A stretch of 64,000 nt of DNA from Nitrosospira multiformis (GTDB lineage Bacteria > Pseudomonadota > Gammaproteobacteria > Burkholderiales > Nitrosomonadaceae). Location of the stretch: the NCBI RefSeq assembly GCF_900110185.1, contig NZ_FOCT01000003.1:1-64000 (forward strand), read 5' to 3'. The translations under genes and the position numbers were made by a program. Below, piece by piece: positions 8,709-58,089 of the stretch. How positions within the stretch are numbered: the first letter of the stretch is position 1; each line of letters opens with the position of its first letter. Under the pieces are notes generated by a model. The model searched no databases and was not told the origin of the DNA. It saw only the letters and a list, made by a program, of their open reading frames with translations.

Positions 8709-9911
8709 TCAGGAATAATCCAGTCCCATTGCCTCCCTGACCTCGCGCATGGTTTCCTGTGCCAGCTTATCGGCCTTCTCGCAACCATCAGCAATGATAT
8801 TCCGCACCAGTGAAGGCTCTTCTTCGTACATGCGCGCACGTTGGTGCATTGGCCGCTGCTCGGTCAGTATTGCATCGATGACAGGCTGCTTGCAGTCCAG
8901 ACAGCCGATACCCGCAGTGATGCAGCCCTCATGAGCCCACTTCTTTGTATCTTCGTCGGAGTATACGAGATGGAATTGCCATACCGGGCACTTCTCCGGG
9001 GTTCCGGGATCGATACGCCGGACACGCGCGGGATCGGTCGGCATCGTACGAATCTTTCTGGTGACGCTCTCCGGGTCTTCACGCAGGGTAATGGTGTTGT
9101 TATAGGACTTCGACATTTTCTGGCCGTCCAGCCCCGGCATTTTCGACGCTGTCGTCAGCATCGCTTCCGGCTCGGAAAGAATCATCTTTCCACCGCCTTC
9201 CAGGTACCCAAACAAGCGTTCCTGGTCACCCATGCTCAAATTTTGCTGCTCATCCAGCAATGACTTCGCCGCCGCAAGCGCTTCCTCGTCTCCCTGTTCC
9301 TGGTAGCGATTCCTCAAGTCCCGATAGAGGCGGGCTTTTCGGGAACCCAGTTTCTTGATCGCCGCTTCCGCCTTTTCCTGGAATCCAGGCTCCTTTCCGT
9401 AGACATGATTAAAGCGTCGCGCAATTTCCCGGGTGAACTCGATATGCGGCGTCTGATCCTCTCCCACCGGCACTCGGGTAGCCCGGTAAATAAGGATGTC
9501 TGCGCTTTGCAGCAAGGGGTATCCAAGAAAGCCATATGTGTTCAATTCTTTTTCAACCAGCTTTTCCTGCTGGTCCTTGTAGGACGGCACACGCTCCAGC
9601 CAGCCCAGCGGGGTGATCATGGAAAGCAGCACGTGCAACTCTGCGTGCGCGGGAACACGTGACTGTATGAACAACGTCGCCTGGGCCGGGTCGACACCGG
9701 CTGCAAGCCAGTCGATCACCATGTCCCAGACATGCTCTTCGATAATTTCCGGCGTATCGTAATGGGTTGTGAGAGCATGCCAGTCGGCGACAAAGAACAG
9801 GCATTCAAACTGGTGTTGCAGTTCTATCCAGTTTTTGAGCACCCCATGATAATGCCCCAGATGCAGGCCTCCCGTCGGCCGCATTCCCGATAAAACGCGA
9901 TCAGCGAACAT
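8709..9911 (-). CDS. trpS: Tryptophanyl-tRNA synthetase
   Basis: A class I aminoacyl-tRNA synthetase that charges tRNA-Trp. The 400-residue protein has the HIGH-type signature as HLGH (residues 17-20) and an exact KMSKS at 265-269. It is about 70 residues longer than the E. coli enzyme (about 330). The extra length lies mainly at about residues 172-255, a charged helical insertion before KMSKS. I recall similar 400-residue forms in other Betaproteobacteria. The ATG at 9911 gives the standard MFADRVLSGMRPTG start. Confidence 0.96.
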   Translation of the reverse strand: MFADRVLSGMRPTGGLHLGHYHGVLKNWIELQHQFECLFFVADWHALTTHYDTPEIIEEHVWDMVIDWLAAGVDPAQATLFIQSRVPAHAELHVLLSMITPLGWLERVPSYKDQQEKLVEKELNTYGFLGYPLLQSADILIYRATRVPVGEDQTPHIEFTREIARRFNHVYGKEPGFQEKAEAAIKKLGSRKARLYRDLRNRYQEQGDEEALAAAKSLLDEQQNLSMGDQERLFGYLEGGGKMILSEPEAMLTTASKMPGLDGQKMSKSYNNTITLREDPESVTRKIRTMPTDPARVRRIDPGTPEKCPVWQFHLVYSDEDTKKWAHEGCITAGIGCLDCKQPVIDAILTEQRPMHQRARMYEEEPSLVRNIIADGCEKADKLAQETMREVREAMGLDYS

Positions 9912-9961
9912 AGATCATTGCCTCGGTAACTCCAACCAGAATCCTTTAGTAGAGAAGCAGT

Positions 9962-10612
9962 TCAATAAGTATCGAAACCAAAAAACAACGCTATCAAATG
10001 GATCGTGATTCCAATCAGTGGTCCCATAACAGCCCCGAGTACACCCGTCGCCAGCAGAAACAAAAGGATCATGAAGCCGTAAGGCTCGATCTTCGAAAAA
10101 TTATAGGCCAAGCGGGGCGGCAACAGGCTTACCGCAACCCGACCTCCATCGAGCGGCGGCAGAGGCAACAGGTTCAGCACCATCAGCACCACGTTGATTT
10201 TGATTCCCGCCTCACCCATCAATATCAGCGGCTCGGCCAGTCCGTCCTGTGGCAACCCGAGAGCAAACTTGATGACGAATCCCCAAAGCATCGCCATGAA
10301 GAGATTGGCGCCCGGACCGGCGAGTGCCACCCACATCATGTCCTGCTTGGGATTGCGCAATGCGGAGAAGTTGACTGGCACCGGCTTTGCCCAGCCGAAC
10401 AGGATTCCTCCGAGCAGCATCGTTACGATCGGCAGAACGATGGTCCCCAGCGGGTCGATATGGCGTATGGGATTAAGGCTGACGCGCCCCTGCGTATAAG
10501 CGGTGAGATCGCCGAAATGCTTGGCTACATATCCGTGTGCAGCTTCATGCAGCGTGATGGCAAAAATGACCGGAAGCGCATAAATGGCAATGCTCTGGAT
10601 AATGCTATCCAT
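9962..10612 (-). CDS. Site-2-protease-type M50 metalloprotease
   Basis: A 216-residue polytopic membrane protein of the short M50 (S2P-like) peptidase family. The zinc motif HEAAH is near residue 22 and the partner motif PPLDGGR, which supplies the aspartate ligand, follows about 120 residues later. Both lie in hydrophobic segments, as expected for intramembrane proteases. The frame opens at 10633, but the ATG at 10612 gives the usual short N-terminus. It overlaps the yciO-like gene by eight bases. The substrate is unknown. It lies in a conserved cluster with trpS and scpAB. Confidence 0.9.
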   Translation of the reverse strand: MDSIIQSIAIYALPVIFAITLHEAAHGYVAKHFGDLTAYTQGRVSLNPIRHIDPLGTIVLPIVTMLLGGILFGWAKPVPVNFSALRNPKQDMMWVALAGPGANLFMAMLWGFVIKFALGLPQDGLAEPLILMGEAGIKINVVLMVLNLLPLPPLDGGRVAVSLLPPRLAYNFSKIEPYGFMILLFLLATGVLGAVMGPLIGITIHLIALFFGFDTY

Positions 10613-11237
10613 TCGGCATTCCAAAGGGTGCAAGGCTGCCCTTGCCTTGCCGGACTAGCACAGGCGTATCCCCGGTCAGATCGACCACCGTGCTCATCTC
10701 CAGGCCACAGGCGCCGCTATCCAGTATCAGTTCCACCCGATGCTCGAGACGTGCGCGGATTTCCAGAGGATCGTTAAGTGGAAGCTCCTCCCCGGGCAGC
10801 ATCAGGGTAGAGCTCAGCAGGGGTTCATTCAGTTCCGCCAGCAGTGCCTGGACGACAGCATGGTCCGGAATTCTCACACCGATCGTATTGCGCTTGGGAT
10901 GCAGCAGGCGCCGTGGCACTTCCCGGGTAGCCTGAAAGATAAACGTGTAGCAACCGGGGGTGCAGGCCTTGAGCAACCGGTATTCCGTGTTATCGAATTT
11001 GGCGTAGCGCGAGATTTCCGTAAAGTCCCGGCACATGAGGGTGAAATGGTGATCCTCATCCACTCCGCGCAGTGCGCGAATACGGCTCATGACGTTCTTG
11101 TCGCCCAACTGCCCCCCCAGCGCGTAGCAGGAATCAGTCGGGCATACGATCACGCCCCCCGCCCGCACGATGGCCGAAGTCTGCCGTATCAGCCGGGGCT
11201 GAGGGTTATCGGGGTGAATGGAAAAGAATTGAGCCAC
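10605..11237 (-). CDS. yciO: YciO/Sua5-type threonylcarbamoyl-AMP synthase-like protein
   Basis: Product of about 210 residues with the YrdC/YciO fold. The N-terminus VAQFFSIHPDNPQPRLI matches E. coli YciO closely, so a GTG start at 11237 is chosen; an ATG at 11279 would add 14 residues with no better ribosome site. Visible family segments are PTDSCYALG, FTLMCRD and KRNTIGVRIP. The paralogue Sua5/YrdC makes threonylcarbamoyl-AMP for the t6A tRNA modification. YciO itself is only weakly active in published work, so its cellular role is less certain. Confidence 0.88.
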   Translation of the reverse strand: MAQFFSIHPDNPQPRLIRQTSAIVRAGGVIVCPTDSCYALGGQLGDKNVMSRIRALRGVDEDHHFTLMCRDFTEISRYAKFDNTEYRLLKACTPGCYTFIFQATREVPRRLLHPKRNTIGVRIPDHAVVQALLAELNEPLLSSTLMLPGEELPLNDPLEIRARLEHRVELILDSGACGLEMSTVVDLTGDTPVLVRQGKGSLAPFGMPNG

Positions 11238-11302
11238 GTAGCAAACAGCAAATTGAATTTTTGGGAATGCCGCCCTCATAAAAAGCGGGCGCGATTTTCG
11301 CC

Positions 11303-12145
11303 TTACATCAGTCCGGGCCAGTCATGCCAGACGGGAGCACAGTTGGCAGGTAAAGGAGGCATTCCACCGAGGTCGAAATAGCTCTCGCCCGGCCCATGAA
11401 AATCGGAACCGCGCGACGCCAGCAAGCCCAGCCGCCGGCTATGGTTGGCGAAAAGCAGGGATTGCTCAGGTGTATGGCTTCCGGTAACCACTTCTATAGC
11501 CTCCCCGCCCAAGGTCTGAAACTCCAGCAGCAGTTCTTCCAGTGCATCCTTGCCCAATTTATAACGCCCCGGATGGGCGATCACAGCTCTGCCGCCACTG
11601 CTGCGGATCCAGTTTACTGCATCACTCAGCGAGACCCATTGATGGGGAGCATAGCCTGGTTTGCCTTTTACAAGATATTTCTTGAATACTGTCCGCACAT
11701 CCTTCGCGTAACCCTGCTCAACCAGAAAACGCGCAAAGTGCATGCGTCCGATCAGCTGTCCATTGCCTGCATTCCTGCGGGCGCCCTCAAAACTACCGTG
11801 AATACCGAATTTGTCGAGTTGCGCTGCAATATTGCGTGCGCGCGCCGTCCTGCCCTGGCGGATGGTGCTCAGGCCTTCGACCAGTTGAGGGTCTGCGGGA
11901 TCGATTCCCAGTCCCACAATATGCACGGTCTGTCCGCGCCAACTGACGGAGATTTCCACGCCATCGATAAACAAAACGCCGTTTTTATCTGCAGCCTCGC
12001 GCGCCTCTTGCAGGCCGCCAATATCATCGTGATCGGTCAGCGCCAGCACTTCCACGCCGCGCACAGCCGCATGCTCCACTAACTGGGTAGGAGTCAGTAA
12101 ACCATCGGAAACCGTGGAATGGCAGTGCAGATCGATATTGAGCAT
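11303..12145 (-). CDS. PHP-domain phosphoesterase, YciV/RNase AM type
   Basis: A 280-residue PHP-family metal hydrolase. The N-terminal DLHCHSTVSDG, LTDHDD, GVEIS and C-terminal SRGSDFHGP motifs give the full set of His/Asp metal ligands. The closest characterised relatives are E. coli YciV (RNase AM, 5'-3' trimming of small RNAs) and a Chromobacterium 3',5'-nucleoside bisphosphate phosphatase. Position next to yciO and trpS also fits this group (trpH locus in enterics). It is the first gene of the minus-strand run and is divergent from cysG with about a 200-base gap. Confidence 0.9.
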   Translation of the reverse strand: MLNIDLHCHSTVSDGLLTPTQLVEHAAVRGVEVLALTDHDDIGGLQEAREAADKNGVLFIDGVEISVSWRGQTVHIVGLGIDPADPQLVEGLSTIRQGRTARARNIAAQLDKFGIHGSFEGARRNAGNGQLIGRMHFARFLVEQGYAKDVRTVFKKYLVKGKPGYAPHQWVSLSDAVNWIRSSGGRAVIAHPGRYKLGKDALEELLLEFQTLGGEAIEVVTGSHTPEQSLLFANHSRRLGLLASRGSDFHGPGESYFDLGGMPPLPANCAPVWHDWPGLM

Positions 12146-57153: not shown

Positions 57154-57525
57154 GAAAAAATGCTTTCAAAGTATGAAGGGAATAAAAGGGAATTATACAG
57201 GAAGCAGCGTGCTGCCTCAGGCTGGGAGGCGTATGATTTCCGACTGGACCAGATACAGATGTATTGATGACGGAAGTTTTTGTCGCCCAAAAATCGCTCT
57301 GCTAGAGCGTCGTGGTATGCCTATATTAATAACGGGAGTTGGCATCTTCGAGACATGCCCACATAAGAGTGAGTCTGACCGGATAAAAAATGAAATATTC
57401 TCGGCAAGTCTTGGCACGTCAAACGAGTGTCATCTCCATCGACGTTTTCGAGGAGACGGACGGCATACCTTTGCGGATCGCTTTACTACGACTATTAAAT
57501 TCAATCAATCGAAAGGAGGTATGAA
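57154..57525. other. Spacer between prfB and the micropeptide gene
   Basis: A 372-base gap between divergent genes, serving as promoter region for prfB and for the micropeptide. Open frames in it have no recognisable product. No confident promoter could be placed. Confidence 0.4.
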
Positions 57526-57747
57526 ATGAGCATCATAAAAATGCCAGGCTTTACCGCGGAAGCATCGGTCTACACCGTGACTAACTATTCCTTAAAAGCC
57601 ATAAATGATTCGCGAAATAGAGAGACCGTAAATTTGCAGTCATCAGGTGAATCCGAATTTAACCTTTGCACGTGGTATGCGTTCTGTTGCAGGGAATACA
57701 AGAATCCGCAGTGCTGCAGAGAAATGCGCTTATGCGCTCTAATGTAA
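57526..57747 (+). CDS. Cysteine-rich micropeptide, unknown function
   Basis: A 73-residue product with a strong AAAGGAGGT ribosome site nine bases before the ATG, which argues that it is translated. The first part has MPGFTAEASVY (6-16), a segment I have seen at the start of other short uncharacterised bacterial proteins. The C-terminal third holds six cysteines at 48, 54, 55, 63, 64 and 70, the symmetric pattern C-x5-CC-x7-CC-x5-C. No signal peptide or membrane helix is evident. No modification enzyme or transporter is next to it. A metal-binding, disulfide-rich or leader-type peptide are all possible; I cannot choose. Confidence 0.65.
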   Translation: MSIIKMPGFTAEASVYTVTNYSLKAINDSRNRETVNLQSSGESEFNLCTWYAFCCREYKNPQCCREMRLCALM

Positions 57748-58089
57748 TACTGCTAATTCGCTTCCCTTTTATCCTTGATAACCTATTTTTTCATGAATAA
57801 ACGTCATGGCTGCTTCCTTCTCCAGATTCAAAGAAGGTGCTTCCATCAGCAAAAGGAAAAACTCGATCAGAAAAAGAAAAGGGCTCGTGACACGTGGGGT
57901 GATGTGCGACGAGCCCAAATGTAGAAGGAAAATAATGCGTAAAACAAACACGGTACTACTGGCAACTTCAAGGAGAAGTCACAGGCAGAATAATGGATTT
58001 TTACCCCTCTGGGAATGTGGCAAATTGTCGCACCATTATCGCAGGGGTTGGGGACGGGAATATTCGGTTTACAGGTTCAGGGAATCTAT
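57748..58089. other. Spacer between micropeptide gene and fghA
   Basis: A 342-base region between convergent genes. It contains a terminator-like inverted repeat for the minus strand (57871-57916). An open frame on + from 57806 is very basic, has no ribosome site and is not credible. Confidence 0.45.
57871..57916 (-). terminator. Terminator for the frmA-fghA unit
   Basis: On the minus strand, GGGCTCGT and ACGAGCCC form an eight-base-pair stem (arms at 57909-57916 and 57881-57888) with a 20-base loop, then TTTTCTTTTT. It lies about 175 bases past the fghA stop. The long loop lowers certainty, but the U-rich tail points to intrinsic termination. Confidence 0.55.

Follow-up and report, generated by a model that had tools for sequence, protein, structure and literature searches.

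A likely orphan precursor of a cysteine-rich leader/core peptide family in Nitrosospira multiformis, with a distant S8 protease and PatG-DUF protein as candidate partners

The window analyzed in this study is a stretch of 64,000 nucleotides from Nitrosospira multiformis. Direct translation of the open reading frame at 57526-57747 on the plus strand gives a peptide of 73 residues, and a Shine-Dalgarno sequence, AAAGGAGG, was read directly at 57512-57519 on the same strand, 6 nucleotides upstream of the ATG. The six cysteines of the peptide (residues 48, 54, 55, 63, 64 and 70) all lie in its final 26 residues and form the pattern C-x5-CC-x7-CC-x5-C. The reading frame, ribosome site and cysteine pattern given in the initial annotation were thus confirmed. 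Among the 296 ORFs of 50-150 amino acids in the window, this ORF alone contained at least six cysteines in its last 30 residues, and it alone matched the head motif of the peptide family described below at the score used. It had a family PSSM score of 30.7 and a head HMM E-value of 5.4e-6, with the motif at most 10 residues from the start.

Comparison with 116 family peptides suggests a division of the peptide into leader and core. The putative leader (57526-57639, plus strand) would extend from MSIIKM-PGFTAEASVY...NY... up to VNLQ and contains no cysteine. The V-N-L-Q sequence (57628-57639, plus strand) is the counterpart of V-x-P-Q in the family, with L in place of P, and is a putative cleavage or docking site; by hand count it is offset by 28 residues from the head proline, and the family median is 30. 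The putative core, C48-x5-C54C55-x7-C63C64-x5-C70, occupies 57640-57744 on the plus strand, and its tail is homologous to that of a Methylobacter luteus peptide (L096:12323-12535).

The gene is carried on a segment of about 620 bp (57246-57865), with prfB-like and S-formylglutathione-hydrolase-like genes on either side, both named by inspection of their translations. No maturation or export gene adjoins the ORF. A promoter scan gave no more matches than shuffled sequence, and there were four terminator-like sites compared with 0.8 in shuffles. The sequence at 57860-58031 recurs elsewhere in the same genome, and partly in several genomes of the genus, and looks like a dispersed intergenic repeat. 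Searches of Pfam, NCBIfam, PHROGs and PADLOC returned nothing useful for the peptide (one PHROGs match, E 0.42), and it had no sequence match to any solved disulfide-rich mini-protein structure. The AF2 model of the peptide was weak, with a mean pLDDT of 54.7. Based on two input sequences, AF2 predicted the tail as two short helices with pLDDT of about 80, placing the core in a helical hairpin that would be compatible with nested disulfides but is no proof of them.

The head of the peptide belongs to a large set of related peptides. Many short ORFs in the genus start near PGFTAEASLY and end in differing, mostly cysteine-rich tails. The general layout is a head (PGFTAEASLYRT...Y, also written PGFTAEASLYxT..Y, with PGFTAEASVY as the window version), a V-x-P-Q-like motif about 30 residues further on, and a cysteine-rich tail. 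Tails vary widely across the family while the head is conserved, so that the family displays the RiPP hallmark of a conserved leader and a variable core. The head profile (A3) had eight matches in the genome of the window, with E-values from 1e-9 to 3e-5. There, two intact family members and a degenerate one are grouped near G000:C44:253 kb, and six copies, including the window ORF, are dispersed. Head-profile peptides were found in 14 of 23 genomes of the genus and 5 of 369 of the class; among 398 sampled genomes of the phylum only that of the window had matches, and the 397 others had none. One family member from an acidobacterium (L108:10995-11846) reaches 283 residues, its tail being greatly extended by repeated units that contain CC.

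Neither Pfam nor NCBIfam has a model for the family peptides scanned. For example, nine family peptides had no NCBIfam match, including to the PatE-type precursor and Nif11/NHLP models. Weak Pfam matches of two siblings (CIDR1_gamma and delta ctenitoxin) and one of the L108 peptide fell below cut-offs and were dismissed, as were the PDB matches of one sibling, which were weak. The family was not found described in the literature searched, which excluded subscription journals and preprints, and a prior description elsewhere is possible. The suggestion that the peptide was undescribed has therefore held in the libraries and literature covered, as has the layout of a conserved head and cysteine-rich tail, the head being common to a large, widespread and apparently undescribed family of bacterial cysteine-rich peptides. 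Of ten orthologue groups of siblings, nine had a core pN/pS of 0.03-0.27 and the tenth, a pair, had 0.82; pN/pS of the leader was 0.09-0.56. The low ratios in most groups indicate purifying selection on most of the siblings tested and, thus, that these are translated and used.

Where family peptides are clustered, their neighbors are an S8 protease and a PatG_D- and PatG_C-containing protein of about 317 amino acids. In the genome of the window this pair was read on the minus strand of locus L066, at 9357-10310 and 10685-11629. Conversion from locus coordinates places the PatG-like protein at G000:C44:253356-254309 and the S8 protease at G000:C44:254684-255628, about 196 kb from the window ORF on the same contig. 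The initial annotation had stated that no maturation enzyme was adjacent and that a partner would have to act in trans. This agrees with the presence of likely partners elsewhere on the contig, by which maturation would be carried out.

The two partner genes and the peptides occur together. PatG_D was found in 13 of the 23 genus genomes, all 13 of which also encode head peptides, and one of the ten genomes without PatG (G095) has a head peptide (Fisher 1.2e-5, uncorrected for phylogeny). In the class, PatG_D and the peptides were each found in 5 of 369 genomes, four of them shared (Fisher 3.3e-8, uncorrected for relatedness). The exception with PatG_D and no peptides (G156) encodes an apparently fused protein of 649 amino acids, and in the peptide-only genome (G152) the peptides lie near a contig start. 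In addition, 32 loci were found by scanning genome contigs for two short patterns taken from an alignment of PatG-like proteins, a method that is biased toward near relatives and does not select for S8 proteases or peptides. An S8 homologue and a head peptide were present in all 32 (in L108 by eye). The S8 gene is in pieces in L117, incomplete in L102 and downstream of the peptides in L101. By their titles, these loci come from proteobacteria, Nitrospira, acidobacteria, Methanoperedens, Caldilineaceae, Ferruginibacter and actinomycetes, with the Nitrospira, Methanoperedens, Caldilineaceae and Ferruginibacter loci being MAGs. Six plasmid records contain a PatG relative. Five were examined, of which three carry both an S8 protease and a peptide, annotated only as a peptidase in the case of the S8 and as hypothetical in the case of the DUF protein; in the other two neither S8 nor peptide was found. 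No PatG relative was found in phages or viral contigs.

Comparison of 28 of the 32 loci identified no third protein family of at least 80 amino acids common to more than five. Upstream of the S8/PatG cluster of one locus (L070:966-5424) lies a block encoding two family-less proteins (247 and 158 amino acids), a tyrosinase and an acyl-CoA ligase. Several genus genomes have an upstream tyrosinase. The tyrosinase and its neighbors were considered as modifying enzymes and rejected, being seen in only some genus loci. On a Sinorhizobium plasmid, a protein annotated as an omptin family outer membrane protease is encoded just past the peptide array (L119:9304-10455).

The S8 protease in the genome of the window had its best matches among solved structures to 4h6v, 3zxx and 4h6w, in the cyanobactin N-terminal protease group (E 2e-28 to 1e-27), which we take to be PatA-type proteases. 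Subtilisins ranked next, and the PatG macrocyclase entries were far behind (E 2e-12). Against NCBIfam, a sibling S8 protease scored 124 bits with the mycosin model and 114 bits with the PatA/PatG model, both below cut-off. Because the mycosin model scored slightly higher and ordinary subtilisins ranked above the PatG macrocyclase, the S8 match is not exclusively cyanobactin-like. Active site residues Asp29, His65, Asn166 and Ser231 are invariant in all 26 aligned S8 sequences. Asp and His are 36 residues apart in 25 of the 28 S8 sequences listed (the pattern caught another Asp in L096 and L105), which gives no sign of the PatG macrocyclization insert in the S8. In the model of the PatG-like protein the first 60 residues are disordered and the domain matches the PatG DUF 4uvq (E 3.3e-13, TM 0.60/0.71). 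Of 29 homologues, 21 carry [VIL]xPQ in the disordered tail and 24 carry C-x(1-2)-C there, an arrangement that resembles the precursor junction and may mimic it.

The boundary between leader and core was approached through the distribution of cysteines. A head-motif search gave 122 matches in 42 loci, the other 8 of an initial 50 having been excluded because they duplicated genus loci. Removal of six matches (three inside S8 genes, two chance matches and one PGVTA row) left 116 peptides in 39 loci. The strict motif [VILM]xPQ is present in 56 of these and a looser form in 98, at a median offset of 30, and 18 are without even the loose form. In the 98 motif-bearing peptides, cysteine accounts for 21 of the 3332 residues up to and including the motif and for 597 of the 5291 that follow. 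For the analysis of cysteine number, a truncated row (L068) and the degenerate L066 row were removed and 29 further genus peptides were added, from which the degenerate L066 copy and a frameshifted copy in genome G098 were left out and one of which is the same gene fetched twice. In the resulting 143 peptides, cysteines were even in number in 132 of 141 cores with at least two, in 48 of 52 cluster representatives and in 72 of 78 non-redundant cores (<35% identity). The even share depended on where the core was cut, at 62 of 77 from the head proline, a peak of 72 of 77 at 26-34 residues and 41 of 72 at 46. Other ORFs of the same loci with at least four cysteines were even in 403 of 624. Relative to this rate, p was 1e-8 for the 78 cores and 4e-6 for the 52 representatives, a test in which kinship is not fully removed, as looser linkage chains most cores into one group. 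The window peptide, with six cysteines in its tail and none in its leader, fits the family pattern. These counts are read as paired cysteines in a core that starts near V-x-P-Q. Since cysteines are mostly even in number after the motif and rare before it, the family is read as undergoing leader removal and forming a disulfide-bonded core, rather than thiazoles or lanthionines.

We consider it likely that the window gene encodes an orphan precursor of a leader/core peptide system matured by the S8/PatG-DUF pair, with the peptide serving in trans as a substrate of the distant pair. The head would dock on the protease/DUF pair, and the S8 enzyme would cut near V-x-[P/L]-Q. The freed core of about 35 residues would fold with three disulfides, and a nested ladder of C48-C70, C54-C64 and C55-C63 would explain the mirror pattern. 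The free DUF protein, in whose tail C-x(1-2)-C comes after [VI]xPQ, is a candidate recognition or oxidative-folding factor. The released core may act outside the cell. Since no signal peptide or double-glycine motif was evident by eye in the window peptide, such a disulfide-rich product would need an exporter of another kind. An ecological role in competition or signaling is a guess.

The strongest rival to this reading concerns the window copy and can hold together with the main reading of the family. On this view the family system is real, and this gene is a decayed or decaying stray that has ceased to work as a precursor. We regard this as a substantial possibility but the less probable one. 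The whole peptide is nearly private in searches of its own genome and of the family, although its head is not. This copy was detected in only 2 of the 23 genus genomes, on the small segment; in a third genome (G097) the same junction lacks about 620 bp and has 78 other bases instead. The sole orthologue (G098) carries a deletion of 2 bases that disrupts its frame from about codon 25 onward, so that a frame broken in a close relative, which the initial annotation had said would count against the gene, was found in one of the two carriers. The junction reads VNLQ rather than VxPQ. A sibling in the main cluster, the third cluster peptide of the same genome (L066:8401-8676), is read, beyond the head, in another frame than its counterpart in G098 and likewise looks like a degenerate copy. 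Against this reading, the frame, ribosome site and all six cysteines of the window copy are intact, and its tail matches that of the M. luteus peptide, which lies inside a full cluster. That tail is C-x5-CC-x7-CC-x6-C, almost the six-cysteine pattern of the window copy, and BLASTP aligned the two peptides with an E-value of 6e-15 and VNLQ opposite VHPQ. The core score of the pair was 79, compared with 45 for the next best of 116 and a mean of 22; it was reached by 0 of 20000 shuffles, and by 2 of 20000 with the cysteines held fixed. The window copy differs from the G098 copy by 3 synonymous and 5 nonsynonymous changes, which give no indication of selection on it.

Small metal-binding proteins had also been put forward, and in a family-wide form this would make the peptides unprocessed metal binders and give the S8 and PatG-DUF proteins some other role. 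Many cores do have four or six cysteines. However, cysteine counts per core vary from 0 to 24, most of them even, the tails diverge widely while the head is kept, and no peptide scanned matched a metal-protein family. We find this unlikely, the even number of cysteines having made the original suggestion less likely.

It is more doubtful still that the family is a cyanobactin-like RiPP with azoline-bearing or N-to-C cyclized cores. The PatA-like protease and the PatG-DUF fold resemble parts of the cyanobactin enzymes PatA and PatG (TIGR03895; PF18047, PF18065; 4h6w, 3zxx, 4uvq), as the S8 protease is nearest to PatA-type structures and the DUF fold is common to PatG and the PatG-like protein. 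The S8 and PatG-like proteins match the two ends of the single TIGR03895 model, below cut-off (only 25 bits for the PatG-like protein), as if PatA had been split. In contrast to cyanobactins, there are two separate genes here and a macrocyclase domain is not evident. YcaO was not found in any of the 23 genus genomes, with a positive E. coli control, and the precursors match no NCBIfam model, PatE-type included. Thus, three cyanobactin features (macrocyclase insert, PatE-type precursor and YcaO) were all lacking in these searches. The S8 spacing and the better match to PatA-type structures, the even-cysteine rule and the finding that only the S8 and PatG-like proteins are widely common to the 28 neighborhoods also argue against this reading. 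According to a 2015 review (PMC4663559), cyanobactin clusters had until then been identified in cyanobacteria alone, it was unclear what the DUF of PatA and PatG does, and the PatG macrocyclase domain carries a helical macrocyclization insert; the present system is found outside cyanobacteria. Lastly, a spurious ORF with chance cysteines would agree with the broken orthologue but is already contradicted by homology, namely by the head motif, which matches at E 5e-6 in its own genome and in none of the 397 others of the phylum, and by the tail homologue, and we give it almost no weight.

By analogy, the window gene would work in the manner of a RiPP precursor whose leader protease is of the cyanobactin type, and the orphan-precursor reading has parallels in other systems. 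In prochlorosins, some precursors are encoded far from the enzyme. Disulfide-rich mini-proteins (knottin-like, alpha-hairpinin-like) have small cores with mostly even numbers of cysteines; the cores here are similar, and that of the window is predicted, in the weak model, as a helical hairpin. Unlike such mini-proteins, the family has a dedicated PatA/DUF pair rather than a Sec signal. Prochlorosins, according to PMC10783134, have variable cores, one leader type and one promiscuous enzyme. Variable cores behind one leader type are a likeness shared with both prochlorosins and Nif11/NHLP peptides, but the nine peptides did not match those NCBIfam models. In addition, a LanC-like cyclase, a lanthipeptide feature, was found in 0 of 23 genus genomes, and cysteine parity suggests disulfides.

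A two-gene system related to the cyanobactin maturation enzymes probably trims the family peptides and folds them. More tentatively, and at somewhat less than even confidence, the family may be a new ribosomal peptide class in about seven phyla by record titles (four via MAGs only), which would produce disulfide mini-proteins from clustered and dispersed precursors by means of a split PatA. The PatG-type DUF would then be a free-standing recognition or thiol-disulfide factor with a substrate-mimicking [VI]xPQ...C-x(1-2)-C tail. Here the DUF stands alone as a protein encoded next to a single protease, and neither a heterocyclase nor a macrocyclase was found; natural precursor sets accompany it, so that its function is directly testable. 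Nitrifiers, methanotrophs and acidobacteria would hold in this family an extensive store of cysteine-rich peptides, most of them lacking annotation.
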